Assembly: GCF_016623615.1 (NCBI RefSeq)
Contig: NZ_JAEHFX010000001.1
Location: 682,001 to 746,000 of the forward strand
DNA: 64,000 bases
Reading direction: 5' to 3'
Source: Adhaeribacter terrigena
Lineage (GTDB): Bacteria > Bacteroidota > Bacteroidia > Cytophagales > Hymenobacteraceae
Part shown: positions 55,582 through 59,483 of the stretch, one piece after another
Layout of the letters: each line of letters opens with the position of its first letter
How positions within the stretch are numbered: position 1 is the first letter of the stretch
The notes under the pieces: model-generated
Databases searched by the model: none
The model's input: only the letters and a program-made list of their open reading frames with translations
What the model was told of the DNA's origin: nothing
Position numbers and translations under genes: made by a program

Positions 55582-55688
55582 TTTAGAAAATTGAACCAAC
55601 CGGTAAATTACAAACGTATGCCGCAAATCAAAAATGCCATTTTTATATAGTTAAATTATTGGGTGCATTAACGCAAATCCTGCTTCGG

Positions 55689-55717
55689 AGTTTTTCAGGC
55701 CTTTTACCTACCGTTTT
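55689..55717 (+). repeat. Bipartite TAGCG element, core CCTACCG
   Basis: AGTTTTTCAGG block, in the divergent gap between the barrel gene and the radical SAM gene. Confidence 0.72.
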
Positions 55718-55760
55718 CTTTAGCATCTGTAGTTTGCTTTGCAGGAATATTTTAAATAGA

Positions 55761-55799
55761 TACTAAATAAATTAGTTTAAAATGCTTGTTTATTTAGTA
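55761..55799. promoter_or_regulatory. Palindromic operator-like site upstream of the radical SAM gene
   Basis: Perfect 11-bp inverted repeat TACTAAATAAA / TTTATTTAGTA with a 17-nt spacer, ending 21 bp before the start codon. Position and symmetry suggest a repressor site; regulator unknown. Confidence 0.55.
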
Positions 55800-55801
55800 A
55801 A

Positions 55802-55831
55802 ACGTTCGTAAAATTACGTCATGAACGAACG
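55802..55831 (+). promoter_or_regulatory. Inverted repeat spanning the radical SAM start codon
   Basis: ACGTTCGT / ACGAACGT, 8 bp, enclosing the ATG at 55821. Could be an operator half-site pair or an RNA stem masking the start. Confidence 0.45.
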
Positions 55832-57086
55832 TATTCAGGAAAAGCTAAAAATATTAGCCGATGCGGCCAAGTACGATGTTTCCTGCTCCAGCAGCGGAGG
55901 CAAACGGAAAAACAGCAACAAAGGCCTAGGCAATGCTGAAGGCATGGGCATTTGCCACAGCTATACCGAAGACGGCCGTTGCGTTTCGTTGCTGAAAATC
56001 CTGCTTACCAATTTCTGTATTTACGATTGTGCTTACTGCGTAACCCGCAAAAGCAACGATATAAAACGCGCTGCCTTTACCATAGAAGAAGTGGTAGACC
56101 TGACCATAAACTTCTACCGCCGCAACTACATCGAAGGCTTGTTCCTGAGTTCGGGCATTTTCAAGAACGCCGATTATACCATGGAACGTTTGGTACGAAT
56201 CGCCAAAAAACTGCGCACCGAGCATAAATTCAACGGTTACATTCATCTCAAAACCATTCCCGGGGCGTCGGAAGAATTAATTAAAGAAGCCGGTTTGTAT
56301 GCCGACCGCCTGAGCGTGAACATTGAGCTGCCTTCGGAAGTAAGTTTGAAAAATCTGGCTCCGGAAAAGAACTATGCCGAAATTTTAACGCCCATGGGCA
56401 ATATTTCGGATCAGTTGCAGCTAAGCAAAGACGAACGGAAATTATTTAAAGCTGCACCCGCGTTCGCGCCGGCCGGCCAAAGCACGCAACTGATCATTGG
56501 TGCTTCAAAAGAAAACGACCAGCAGATCTTAACGCTTTCGAGCAACCTTTATAATAGCTATAATCTAAAACGGGTTTATTATTCCGGCTACGTGCCGGTG
56601 AGCGAAGACAGCCGCTTGCCTTCGCTCGTAAACCCGCCCATTATCCGCGAAAATCGCGTTTACCAGGCCGATTGGCTCATGCGTTTCTACGGTTTCCAGG
56701 TAAACGAAATTGTAGACGACCAGAATCCGGACCTTGACCTGGAGATCGATCCGAAACTGGCCTGGGGGCTGCGCAACCTGAGCGTTTTTCCGGTAGAAAT
56801 AAACACCGCCGATTACGAACTGATCCTGCGCGTACCGGGCATCGGGGTAAAATCGGCAAAGAAAATTGTGGCTGCGCGCCGGTTTGCACCGCTAAGCCTG
56901 GAACATCTGCACAAATTCGGCGTGGTTTTAAAACGGGCGCGTTACTTCATAACCTGCAAAGGCCAAAGCCCCGAAAGCAAAGACTTCACTGCCGAAATCA
57001 TCCGCCGCCGCATTCTTTTTGGTGAAGGCTCCGTGCGGAATGCGCTGGTAAAGCAACAACTTTCGCTCTTTGCCATGGCCGGCTGA
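55821..57086 (+). CDS. Putative DNA modification/repair radical SAM protein
   Basis: 421 aa. The [4Fe-4S] cluster motif is Cys66-x3-Cys70-x2-Cys73 (FCIYDCAYC). Further family features are RRNYIEGLFLSSGIFKN, GYIHLKTIPGAS and NIELPSEVSLKNLAPEK. A helix-hairpin-helix DNA-binding motif sits near 335-347 (VPGIGVKSAKKIV). From memory this is the family annotated as putative DNA modification/repair radical SAM protein (TIGR03916), nearly always beside a DUF4130/TIGR03915 gene, as here at 57383. Reaction unknown. Two inverted repeats overlap its promoter and start; the stop codon overlaps a TAGCG element. Confidence 0.9.
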   Translation: MNERIQEKLKILADAAKYDVSCSSSGGKRKNSNKGLGNAEGMGICHSYTEDGRCVSLLKILLTNFCIYDCAYCVTRKSNDIKRAAFTIEEVVDLTINFYRRNYIEGLFLSSGIFKNADYTMERLVRIAKKLRTEHKFNGYIHLKTIPGASEELIKEAGLYADRLSVNIELPSEVSLKNLAPEKNYAEILTPMGNISDQLQLSKDERKLFKAAPAFAPAGQSTQLIIGASKENDQQILTLSSNLYNSYNLKRVYYSGYVPVSEDSRLPSLVNPPIIRENRVYQADWLMRFYGFQVNEIVDDQNPDLDLEIDPKLAWGLRNLSVFPVEINTADYELILRVPGIGVKSAKKIVAARRFAPLSLEHLHKFGVVLKRARYFITCKGQSPESKDFTAEIIRRRILFGEGSVRNALVKQQLSLFAMAG

Positions 57087-57114
57087 AAACGGTAGGGTTT
57101 TAAGCTGAAAAACT
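57086..57114 (-). repeat. Bipartite TAGCG element, core CCTACCG on the minus strand
   Basis: Its terminal base is the A of the TGA of the radical SAM gene. AGTTTTTCAGC block at 57114. Confidence 0.75.
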
Positions 57115-57129
57115 AGAATGAAAGCCGCA

Positions 57130-57158
57130 AAAACGGTATCAAAATCAACCCAAAAAGT
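57130..57158 (-). repeat. Bipartite TAGCG element, core GATACCG on the minus strand
   Basis: ACTTTTTGGG block; second copy in the same orientation 44 bp from the first. Confidence 0.65.
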
Positions 57159-57208
57159 AAAAATAATTTTTCCTGAAAACATAGTTAAACCCTTTGAATT
57201 AAAATGCT

Positions 57209-57373
57209 ATGAAAAATTCTGCAAAAGTTAACCCGGTTTCCTGCCGCTGCAAATTAAGCAAACTGGTGCTGCACTTAAAGCAAATGAACGGCCTGATCTC
57301 GGTGCCGGCGCCCAAAGGCAACGGCCGCATTAATCTGCGTGCCGCCGAAGCCGTGTTTGTGCAATACATTTAA
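57209..57373 (+). CDS. Small hypothetical protein between the radical SAM and DUF4130 genes
   Basis: 54 aa, ATG to TAA. Short, basic, with CRCKLSKLVLHLKQMNGLI in the middle and APKGNGRINLRAAEAVF after it. Two cysteines in CRC. It ends 9 bp before the DUF4130 start and has no frame conflicts. I do not recognise a family. Its place between two functionally linked genes suggests either a real small partner or a translated leader for the downstream gene. Confidence 0.5.
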   Translation: MKNSAKVNPVSCRCKLSKLVLHLKQMNGLISVPAPKGNGRINLRAAEAVFVQYI

Positions 57374-57382
57374 AAACCGGGA

Positions 57383-58159
57383 ATGCATTATTATACCTAC
57401 GACGGTAGTTTTGAAGGCTTGCTTTCGGTTATTTTCGAAGTGTATGAACACAAAGCCTGGCCCGATAAAATTGACAAACAAGGGCAGGAGCAACCCGGTA
57501 TTTTTGCCAGCTCCCACCATGTGCTAACCGACGAAGCTAAAGCGGCCCGCGTGTGGAACGGTTTGCAGAAAAAACTTTCGGAAAGCGCCTGCACCGATCT
57601 GTATAAAACCTATTTGTGGGAGCAGCCGGGCTTTGAAATGCTGATCTTCCGGTATGTAGAGCTGGTTTTTGCAAGCAAAACGAATATTGAAGAGAATTTT
57701 GCCGAAGATTGCGTGCGCCATATCTCTCAGATCAGCAAGCAAATTTTCCGCGAAAAGCACCGCATGGAAGCCTTTATTCGCTTCCAGAAAACTGAAGATG
57801 GACTTTTTTACGCCACCATTTCGCCGGATTTTAACGTGTTGCCGCTTTTAAAAACGCATTTTCAGAAGCGTTATGCCGATCAGGCCTGGCTGATCTACGA
57901 CGTGAAACGCCGCTACGGCCTGCACTACGATCTTGAAAACGTCAGCTTTATTTGTCTGGAAGAAGCCACCGTACACGCTAAAACCGGAGCGTCACCGGCA
58001 AACATTTTGTCAGAAAAAGAGCCGCTTTACGAGATGCTTTGGCAAACTTATTTCGATCACGTCAATATCCCGGAACGGAAAAATAAGAAGCTGCACCTGC
58101 GCCACATGCCCGTTCGCTACTGGAAATACCTCACCGAAAAGCAAGCCCGTTTGCAGTAA
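57383..58159 (+). CDS. DUF4130-family protein linked to the radical SAM enzyme (uracil-DNA glycosylase-like)
   Basis: 258 aa. Opens with the family signature YTYDGSFEGLLSVIFEVYEHK and has FRYVELVF, MEAFIRFQKTEDGLFYATISPDFNVLPLL and KRRYGLHYDLENV. From memory these are DUF4130/TIGR03915 proteins, tied to the radical SAM family as a probable DNA-metabolism pair; some bacteria fuse the domain to a uracil-DNA glycosylase. Together with the gene at 55821 it likely repairs or modifies an unusual DNA lesion. Confidence 0.85.
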   Translation: MHYYTYDGSFEGLLSVIFEVYEHKAWPDKIDKQGQEQPGIFASSHHVLTDEAKAARVWNGLQKKLSESACTDLYKTYLWEQPGFEMLIFRYVELVFASKTNIEENFAEDCVRHISQISKQIFREKHRMEAFIRFQKTEDGLFYATISPDFNVLPLLKTHFQKRYADQAWLIYDVKRRYGLHYDLENVSFICLEEATVHAKTGASPANILSEKEPLYEMLWQTYFDHVNIPERKNKKLHLRHMPVRYWKYLTEKQARLQ

Positions 58160-58256
58160 AGTGAATACCCGAAGCTGGCAAAATGGTACTCTTGCACTTA
58201 TTGAGAACAGCGACGGCATTTAAGAAACCAAGAAAAATTTATAAGCAGTAACAATT

Positions 58257-58343
58257 ATGGACGAAATGAAATTAATAAAGCTTTGCATTTATCTGAGCTT
58301 AATTCTGGAAGAAAGCGGTAGCGCTACAATACAGAACGCATAA
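58257..58343 (+). CDS. Very small ORF, doubtful
   Basis: 28 codons (MDEMKLIKLCIYLSLILEES at the start), lying between the DUF4130 gene and a terminator. A hydrophobic stretch could form a short membrane helix. Nothing beyond its position supports it. Confidence 0.2.
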   Translation: MDEMKLIKLCIYLSLILEESGSATIQNA

Positions 58344-58354
58344 GTTATAAACTA

Positions 58355-58382
58355 AAAAAGGCTGAATTACTTCAGCCTTTTT
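58355..58382. terminator. Bidirectional terminator
   Basis: 12-bp stem AAAAAGGCTGAA / TTCAGCCTTTTT with a TTAC loop, between the plus-strand DNA-metabolism genes and the minus-strand glycosyltransferase gene. Confidence 0.9.
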
Positions 58383-58424
58383 AATTAAAAGATATTTCCC
58401 GTTCAGCCATTCAAGCCATTCAAT

Positions 58425-59483
58425 TTAACAGGAAAGAGTAGGTAAAAGCTGGTTTAACAGGTTGAAAAGCTCCTGATTGCCGTTCTGGTGGTAGTTTTGC
58501 AGGTTCATCCGGAAACTGTTGATGTCGTAGAGAAAGGCGCGCAGGTTATCCGGGGTAATTTCTTCGAAATGGCGGCCGTAACCCAGTTTGTCTACATAAG
58601 CCGCGTTCATAAACTGCTCGAACTGGTTTTCTAAGGGAACAGAGCAAACGGGTTTATGCAGATATATGGCTTCGCTGATTAATGAGAAACCGCCGTTGGT
58701 AAGCACGGCTTTTGCGCTGCTCAGATCGTCTATAAAACCTTGTTCGCTGAAAGATTTTAGTTGCACATTCCCATGCATTTCGGTTTTGTTGAAGCCATAT
58801 ACCCGGAAAGTTTCCAGCGGCAATTGCTGCAAGGTATTTACCAGATTTTTTTGCGAAGTGGAAGATTGATAAACCAATACGTGCGGACCATTCGTGGGCG
58901 AAGCATTCAGGATGGAATCGCGCATGATGGGCGGCACCAGCGTGGTCTGGTCTTTCTCCAGAAGCGCCGGAAAAAAAGAGGTGATGAGGTAATGCTGGCA
59001 GCGCGGAACTTTGGCTTGTACAATTCTCTTCCCGATCAGAAAGTTCTGTTTCTGATTTTCCGGAATTTTGATATCGAGTTTACCACGGCTCATAACCTGC
59101 ATGTTATCGATGCTGATAATGGGTAGTTTGTGGTGTTTTGCAAAAAAGTAGCTGAACGATTCGAAATCAGAAATAACCAGGTCCGGGGCAAAACTTTCTG
59201 CAATCTTGCGGTATTTGGCAAAGTTGGTTTTCAGGTTTTCAGGCGCCGTTTTTAACGTGCTGGTAAAGGTTTTCAGTTTCGAAACGGCCGCATTTTTATA
59301 TGCCAGGTGGAAGCCTTTTATTTCGTGCACCCGCTCCGGAAAACTCTGGTTGAGCAACGTAAATGCCCGCGAGCTTGAAACTACCTGCACATCGTGGCCA
59401 CTTTGCAAAAGATAGCGGATTATTACCTGGCTGCGGGTTGCGTGACCCAGGCCTTCGCCGGGAACGCCGTAAAGTATTTTCAT
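58425..59483 (-). CDS. GT28/MurG-like glycosyltransferase family protein
   Basis: 352 aa, GT-B fold. N-terminal MKILYGVPGEGLGHATRSQVI with the Gly-rich loop of MurG-type enzymes, DLVISDFESFSYFFAKHH, and C-terminal SEQGFIDDLSSAKAVLTNGGFSLISEAIYLHKPV, the donor-binding signature. Matches the uncharacterised Bacteroidota family with an MGT-like fold. Likely transfers a sugar to a lipid or glycan; substrate unknown. Confidence 0.83.
   Translation of the reverse strand: MKILYGVPGEGLGHATRSQVIIRYLLQSGHDVQVVSSSRAFTLLNQSFPERVHEIKGFHLAYKNAAVSKLKTFTSTLKTAPENLKTNFAKYRKIAESFAPDLVISDFESFSYFFAKHHKLPIISIDNMQVMSRGKLDIKIPENQKQNFLIGKRIVQAKVPRCQHYLITSFFPALLEKDQTTLVPPIMRDSILNASPTNGPHVLVYQSSTSQKNLVNTLQQLPLETFRVYGFNKTEMHGNVQLKSFSEQGFIDDLSSAKAVLTNGGFSLISEAIYLHKPVCSVPLENQFEQFMNAAYVDKLGYGRHFEEITPDNLRAFLYDINSFRMNLQNYHQNGNQELFNLLNQLLPTLSC

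Follow-up and report, generated by a model that had tools for sequence, protein, structure and literature searches.

In the 64,000-nt stretch of the Adhaeribacter terrigena genome analysed here (hereafter the window), we studied a locus in which genes for a radical S-adenosylmethionine (SAM) protein with a helix-hairpin-helix (HhH) motif, a small protein and a DUF4130 protein follow one another. We consider that this locus is probably a LexA-controlled SOS unit of the family Hymenobacteraceae, composed of an enzyme pair and a small SOS protein separable from it. This view is based on a LexA-type box conserved upstream of the unit, on a second such box whose codons are constrained inside the first gene, on selection acting on the small frame, on a conserved clamp-type tail of the radical SAM protein, and on retention of the small gene in genomes that lost both enzymes. 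The family set used for comparison consisted of 37 genomes, the A. terrigena genome included. A sequence-only reading of the same DNA had pointed out the gene pair, and both genes are confirmed: they are co-directional, and their products score above the NCBIfam cut-offs. We take COG4277 to be the radical SAM/HhH protein of this pair. The principal features are as follows.

55763..55775, + strand: LexA box 1, CTAA-N5-TTAG, CTAAATAAATTAG, 58 bp upstream of the radical SAM start codon
55821..57086, + strand: radical SAM protein gene, TIGR03916 (rSAM_link_UDG), 421 aa, with HhH motif
55845..55857, + strand: putative LexA box 2, CTAAAAATATTAG, inside the radical SAM frame, codons 9-13 (Leu-Lys-Ile-Leu-Ala)
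56016..56039, + strand: CX3CX2C radical SAM cluster motif, C66/C70/C73, from alignment
56793..56882, + strand: helix-hairpin-helix motif, residues 325-354 (PF12836, 30.9 bits, cut-off 27)
57057..57071, + strand: QLSLF at the C-terminus, predicted by motif to be a pentapeptide binding the beta sliding clamp
57209..57373, + strand: small protein gene, 54 aa, core K-V-x-x-V-S-[CFL]-x-C-K-L-x-x-L, from conservation
57383..58159, + strand: DUF4130 protein gene, TIGR03915, 258 aa (NCBIfam, Pfam)

LexA boxes and the SOS regulon

The 13-bp dyad CTAA-N5-TTAG is present in exact form within 150 bp of the start codon in 34 of the 37 family genomes, whereas shuffled sequences gave 0.45 on average and never more than 3; a looser pattern is met in all 37, a figure that has no shuffle background. 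The same dyad has been described as the recognition box of the non-canonical Bacteroidetes LexA (Sanchez-Osuna et al., 2021; PMC8565304), and it is reported there that the purified regulator of Pontibacter actiniarum binds the box in an electrophoretic mobility shift assay (EMSA), that a change in either dyad or in spacer length abolishes binding, and that COG1573-COG4277 is among the predicted members of the LexA regulon. Because boxes of the type bound by the Pontibacter regulator are conserved here, the operon appears to be damage-induced; control by LexA is very probable, and we infer that LexA binds at this locus and that the genes form a single transcript. The sequence-only reading had also expected a damage-induced system, and this part very probably stands, through the LexA boxes and with a partial precedent in PMC8565304, but not through the palindromes that it had put forward.

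In the A. terrigena genome, we examined the box neighbours in 12 stretches around matches of a degenerate box pattern. Genes with boxes upstream are recA, umuDC and a topoisomerase IV/gyrase-type pair; further boxes separate a DNA polymerase IV-DnaE pair from a divergent helix-turn-helix (HTH) gene, and two stand just ahead of an XRE-S24 repressor gene (L112; HTH_3 and Peptidase_S24 domains); several of these names come from matches below the curated cut-off (UmuC, the topoisomerase pair and a truncated DnaE). The XRE-S24 repressor is a candidate for LexA itself, assigned by its domains and its own boxes and not by orthology to WP_025606010.1. The divergent HTH gene (L064:3441-3716, contig C18) encodes a 91-aa, RstR-like, HTH-only protein without an S24 domain; three CTAA-N5-TTAG boxes lie between it and the DNA polymerase IV-DnaE pair and a fourth lies inside it, and its product is possibly a LexA relative minus the peptidase half.

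The exact box at 55845-55857 is a putative second LexA operator, and we regard this assignment as probable. Sequence comparison indicates that its codons are constrained. The exact intragenic box occurs in 21 of the 37 family genomes, against 0.26 expected from Leu codon usage, a contrast that is not a probability for genomes related to one another. Codon 9 is CTA in every one of the 37, which span GC contents of 0.41-0.64, and the share of CTA among Leu codons in the same genes was estimated at 0.01-0.12; at codon 12, 21 genomes have TTA and 16 have TTG. Only 2 of 109 control Leu-x-x-Leu pairs in the same genes have the box codons. Outside the family we read loci from the class set (of 30 loci obtained, four from family members were set apart, and the other 26, out of 35 non-family carriers of TIGR03916, were read for boxes, tails and codons) and named loci, i.e., the best 80 of 591 relatives (all 80 read for tails, and 73 of the 74 non-family ones for intragenic codons), and found the box codon pair in 0/26 and 1/73, respectively.

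The intragenic box could alternatively be a by-product of selection on codon choice or on mRNA structure near the start codon. It occupies codons 9-13, a region where codon use is often unusual, and TTG stands in place of TTA at codon 12 in the 16 genomes mentioned above. However, the rare codon CTA is fixed at codon 9 across the whole GC range, and two of the three loci that have lost the radical SAM gene (L195 and L197) still keep a perfect intragenic box, so that we consider the by-product explanation unlikely and a second operator the better reading. Much less probable still is regulation by a separate regulator acting at the two palindromes to which the sequence-only reading had ascribed tight control, and which are as follows.

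55761..55799, + strand: 11-bp inverted repeat, arms 55761-55771 and 55789-55799, not conserved
55802..55832, + strand: 8-bp inverted repeat over the start codon, not conserved

Both are present in the window as perfect repeats, the former with a spacer of 17 nt and the latter (ACGTTCGT / ACGAACGT, 55802-55809 / 55825-55832) straddling the start codon. In favour of such sites, a perfect repeat of at least 11 bp with a spacer of 0-30 is rare: of 1000 dinucleotide-shuffled versions of the upstream 195 nt, 10 contain one. For repeats of at least 8 bp the figure is 129 among 500 shuffled versions of the 150 nt surrounding the start. When we checked their conservation in relatives, however, the 11-bp repeat was found anywhere in the compared stretch in only 2/37 family genomes (A. 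terrigena and L023) and the 8-bp repeat over the start in only 1/37 (A. terrigena alone). Since they are unconserved, we have dropped them as operators; a separate regulator acting there is largely refuted already, and the repeats appear to be mostly incidental. The conserved operator (55763-55775), however, lies partly under the left arm of the 11-bp repeat.

Other elements were noticed around these promoters. At least two DnaA-box-like 9-mers of the TTATCCACA / TGTTGATAA type were seen in 12 of the 14 genomes of genera g2 and g6 (L007, L008, L012, L013, L024 and L027 of g2; L021, L023, L026, L028, L029 and L032 of g6), next to the LexA boxes or between them, about 84-111 bp ahead of the start codon and in L023 in the form TTATCCACAGACTGTGGATAA; they occur in 0/23 other family genomes and are absent from the window. 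An input of DnaA into the SOS promoter of these two genera is possible. In L154, L163, L165, L169, L171, L172, L174, L182 and L184, the radical SAM gene is preceded by three or four copies of GGA-N5-TCC, the second type of LexA box described in PMC8565304, at near-fixed spacings (about 22-23 and 18 bp).

A small protein maintained after loss of the enzymes

A 54-aa open reading frame (ORF) with a Cys-Arg-Cys, ending 9 bp ahead of the DUF4130 start, had been noted by the sequence-only reading and is present in the window at 57209-57373. When its conservation in relatives was checked, a small ORF was found downstream of the radical SAM gene in all 37 family genomes, 33 of them by a first pattern; the other 4, in which Arg replaces Lys, were spotted by eye before a wider pattern recovered them, and in 3 of these 4 loci (L035-L037) the small ORF is separated from the radical SAM gene by another ORF. 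The Cys-Arg-Cys triplet is not conserved as a motif, because the only invariant columns are the second Cys of C-x-C and a Leu, and the first Cys is replaced by Phe or Leu in some genomes. The ratio of nonsynonymous to synonymous differences (pN/pS, raw proportions without multiple-hit correction) was 0.03-0.20 for the core in five of six genera (g1 being a single pair) and 0.16-0.64 for the full length. Since the core values are low relative to those of the full length, the core appears to be constrained as protein and the remainder less so, and the small protein is, on the evidence of these comparisons, almost certainly translated and under selection.

A profile search detected the small protein in 149 of 150 family genomes, including 112 of the 113 that lay outside profile building; the sole miss was G543, which is 87% complete. 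In the 391 class genomes outside the family it was not detected (0/391, of which 35 have TIGR03916 above the cut-off); in this search and in that of the family, scoring in many genomes covered a subset of the first-look candidates (no more than 16 or 44), so that a diverged copy may have been missed. Among the best 80 named loci, all 6 from Pontibacter, Rufibacter and Hymenobacter, the genera after which we name the family Hymenobacteraceae, have it, and none was found in the other 74. That it lies beside the radical SAM gene was ascertained for the set of 37 and observed in L113-L118 and L199, and the 150-genome count refers to presence; L114 is probably the same genome as L021, and L194 is cut by a contig end.

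Searches of the 37 members against family libraries gave best E-values of 0.0084 in Pfam, 0.0083 in NCBIfam and 0.094 in PHROGs and no match in PADLOC; we took these matches as chance, since none involved more than 1 or 2 members and the names of the matched families were unrelated. The profile had no match in the Protein Data Bank (PDB) at E up to 1, and a tblastn search with the small-protein sequence of the window had none in phages and plasmids at E up to 1. Some loci have unusual arrangements. In three Hymenobacter loci (L115, L116 and L118) the distance from the radical SAM gene to the DUF4130 gene behind it is about 1.2-1.6 kb; at other family loci of this type the ORF after the small gene resembles, by eye, an alpha/beta hydrolase; and in L198 (G004, 1131169-1131267) the small-protein core occurs a second time, as a short copy that soon meets a stop and has other genes on either side.

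We also examined family genomes in which the enzymes are missing. TIGR03916 was not found in 4 of the 150, i.e., the incomplete G543 and G497, G521 and G537, which are 99-100% complete; TIGR03915 had no match anywhere in these four genomes and was present in an intact control of the same genus (G495). G497, G521 and G537 keep the small ORF without a TIGR03916 or TIGR03915 match. Their loci (L195-L197) share flanking genes with the intact neighbour L199 (59-66% and 75-78% identity), and in them we read a short stretch as what is left of the initial codons of the radical SAM gene. LexA boxes persist too: L195 has two in exact form and one as TTGG, L196 has one of each, and L197 has two, both exact. 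Because the small ORF and the boxes are kept after enzyme loss, the small gene is probably an SOS gene in its own right. The sequence-only reading had treated it as part of the pair, which does not hold for these genomes, and the small protein is likely to be functionally independent of the radical SAM-DUF4130 pair. That it is a regulator or an inhibitor is a guess from its size and control.

Its position invites other explanations. The small gene follows the radical SAM gene in 37/37 family genomes and, in the window, stands between the pair, as would be expected of a subunit or chaperone of the pair, serving cluster delivery or complex assembly and having no function of its own. However, three genomes keep it with neither enzyme, and the 35 TIGR03916 carriers outside the family belong to a set in which the small protein was undetected throughout; we think such a role quite improbable. 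The short distance of 9 bp to DUF4130 in the window would also suit a translated leader or coupling peptide that sets only DUF4130 translation, but in L115, L116 and L118 the DUF4130 start is about 1 kb behind the small ORF, the small ORF is kept where DUF4130 is lost, and its core is conserved at the amino-acid level, all of which leave little room for this explanation. The combination of a radical SAM protein and a small Cys-containing protein could further suggest a precursor of a ribosomally synthesized and post-translationally modified peptide (RiPP). We set this aside because the radical SAM protein is widespread without a detected small gene, and it is further weakened by the three genomes that have the small gene without a radical SAM protein. 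We prefer an independent small SOS protein.

The radical SAM and DUF4130 proteins

The radical SAM protein matches TIGR03916 over its full length (674.3 bits; cut-off 343.5). C66, C70 and C73 of CX3CX2C are invariant in 43 aligned sequences, and so are C22, C45 and C54, which suggests a second iron-sulphur cluster. Its C-terminal tail carries QLSLF, and QL[SD]LF is the consensus for sliding-clamp binding. The strict form Q[LMI]xLF is conserved in the last 22 residues of all 37 family proteins, in 20 of 26 class proteins and in 67 of 80 named proteins, the background being 1 of 1304 other mechanical ORFs of at least 100 aa in the same loci; 6 more class proteins have related five- or six-residue forms and 12 more named proteins have related forms, under looser patterns defined after the tails had been viewed, and L191, with QGDLF, is outside them. 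From this conservation, docking of the radical SAM protein on the sliding clamp through its tail appears likely. A TIGR03916-like protein encoded on a viral contig (L193, IMGVR_UViG_3300006947_003566; 52% identical in the best segment) also ends in a clamp-type QLELF, and DUF4130 was not found within the available stretch of that contig.

A search by sequence gave no solved-structure match for either the radical SAM or the DUF4130 protein (E up to 0.01 and 1). The fold neighbours of the radical SAM model are ordinary ones, i.e., HydE (Z 11.6, 3.5 A over 211 residues) and biotin and lipoyl synthases, and the structure rows listed hold no clue to the substrate. Spore photolyase (SplB) is not among the 14 NCBIfam rows (E up to 0.1) nor among the 50 structure matches listed, an absence that excludes nothing. 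The TIGR03914 uracil-DNA glycosylase (UDG) family has no match in the A. terrigena genome, and a UDG-linked (UdgX-type) repair operon was set aside on this ground.

The DUF4130 protein scores 288.7 bits with TIGR03915 (NCBIfam cut-off 112.25) and 180.3 bits with Pfam DUF4130 (cut-off 27), and its model is confident, with a predicted local distance difference test score (pLDDT) of 92.9. Foldseek gave three hits under 1e-3, two chains of the PAP phosphatase 8a8k and PggH 7d62, which we recognise as DHH proteins; beyond rank 12 its list holds mostly unrelated hits. In the structure comparison by VIA, the 50 entries listed, each by its best chain, appear to be DHH-superfamily proteins by title or chain range, mostly over residues 1-214 of DUF4130, where replisome complexes are counted as DHH through a presumed Cdc45 chain. 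The matches include 8a8k (Z 8.9, 5.1 A over 188 residues), RecJ (Z 7.9, 6.1 A over 199) and Cdc45 (up to Z 7.4, 5.8 A over 194). An Asp-His-His catalytic triad is not among the conserved columns of 54 aligned DUF4130 sequences; D7 and G12 are the only residues near the first strand that come close to invariance, and conserved residues of the second half include R163, W169, D173 and R176. On balance we lean to a DHH-like fold, of a degenerate DHH/RecJ/Cdc45-like type, and the role that we prefer for the modelled protein is a Cdc45-like one of binding DNA without cutting it. A possible second clamp motif in a DUF4130 loop (Q-x-x-L-F) occurs in only 26 of the 54 sequences and is not claimed.

Behind the operon, by about 200 bp, the window has one more feature, which is possibly its terminator; known RNA families gave no match at the gathering threshold across 55600-58450.

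58355..58382, strand undefined: perfect 12-bp hairpin with a 4-nt loop, arms ending in A and T runs

Proposed mechanism

In a resting cell, the non-canonical LexA (the XRE-S24 repressor) would sit on the upstream box and on the second box in the first codons of the radical SAM gene, and DNA damage would lead to LexA self-cleavage and transcription of the unit. The radical SAM/HhH protein would dock on the replication sliding clamp through its QLSLF tail, the DUF4130 protein would probably handle single-stranded DNA or a nucleotide without cutting, and the pair would probably act on a damaged base close to the replication fork, reversing or modifying it; base repair or modification is the reaction to which we give some preference. 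The small protein, of about 40-75 aa and encoded between the pair, would probably be a regulator or inhibitor of another SOS target. In a bolder form, to which we give even chances, the small ORF would represent a new family of SOS effectors, nearly universal in Hymenobacteraceae and independent of the adjacent enzymes, that acts on a damage checkpoint or modulates replication, and the enzymes would be dispensable passengers of its LexA promoter, which reaches into the first gene through the intragenic operator.

Several results weigh against these proposals. The two exact CTAA-N5-TTAG matches in the 64-kb window, both at this promoter and 82 bp apart, are at chance level in number (shuffle mean 1.3; at least 2 in 35 of 100 shuffles), and therefore evidential weight lies only in the place and conservation of the boxes. 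The extended box pattern with up to 2 mismatches is not enriched in the A. terrigena genome (26 versus 33 in the reversed control), and three exact boxes (L065:474, L066:2636 and L070:1768) adjoin no gene recognised as SOS; we have therefore used only sites beside SOS genes. At the intragenic site, 16 of the 37 genomes read TTGG for TTAG, and dyad changes abolish binding in the EMSA of PMC8565304. The core pN/pS of the small ORF is 0.47 in genus g5, and the g1 value comes from one pair; all three enzyme-less genomes belong to one genus. The radical SAM model is only fair (pLDDT 77.7), being low at the cysteine loops and the tail, with residues 405-414 and 416-421 under 50, and the looser clamp patterns have no background count. 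The fold matches of DUF4130 are weak (best TM score to the query 0.41 among the hits under 1e-3; Z 8.9 and then at most 7.9 in VIA), and, because VIA scores under 8 can reflect a common arrangement, the fold match serves as a lead only.

Comparison with known systems

Both enzyme families, their SOS link (PMC3765255, PMC8565304) and the box are already known. The small protein, the intragenic box, the clamp motif and the DUF4130 fold were not found in print in the main texts of the open-access literature searched, among the matches listed, and the same holds for radical SAM joined with sliding-clamp terms. The sequence-only reading had remarked that the chemistry of the pair is not established, and this agrees with that literature, in which DUF4130 and COG4277 gave one paper each and TIGR03916 and TIGR03915 none among the matches listed. 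The SOS response of this phylum was described only in 2021 (PMC8565304), and a small protein that is conserved and retained after loss of the flanking enzymes is a testable candidate for a missing SOS effector, which suggests an unrecognised player in the bacterial DNA damage response. The clamp-type tail together with the RecJ/Cdc45-like model gives a concrete hypothesis for a widespread pair, that of radical chemistry at the replication clamp.

DUF4130 has been presented as an SOS-linked protein (Biol Direct 2013; PMC3765255); the portion of that paper considered here holds no DUF4130 fold assignment and no clamp motif, both of which are proposed here. The regulon of the non-canonical Bacteroidetes LexA has the same CTAA-N5-TTAG box, with COG1573-COG4277 as a predicted member, whereas the portion of PMC8565304 considered here mentions neither the small ORF nor the intragenic box, both of which are present at this locus. 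Both members of the TIGR03916/TIGR03915 pair (rSAM_link_UDG and SAM_7_link_chp, the latter DUF4130) are well above cut-off here; unlike the pair with a UDG link, they occur in a genome without TIGR03914 and at a locus with an extra gene. The small SOS effectors DinQ, SulA, YneA and SidA (the literature also names DidA, which is SOS-independent) resemble the small protein in being small, narrowly distributed and LexA-controlled, the last probably so here, and the small protein differs from them in having no sequence family match. Clamp-binding repair proteins such as Pol IV and UmuC likewise carry QLxLF or QLxLxF at the extreme C-terminus, and the distinction of the present case is that the bearer of such a tail is a radical SAM enzyme.

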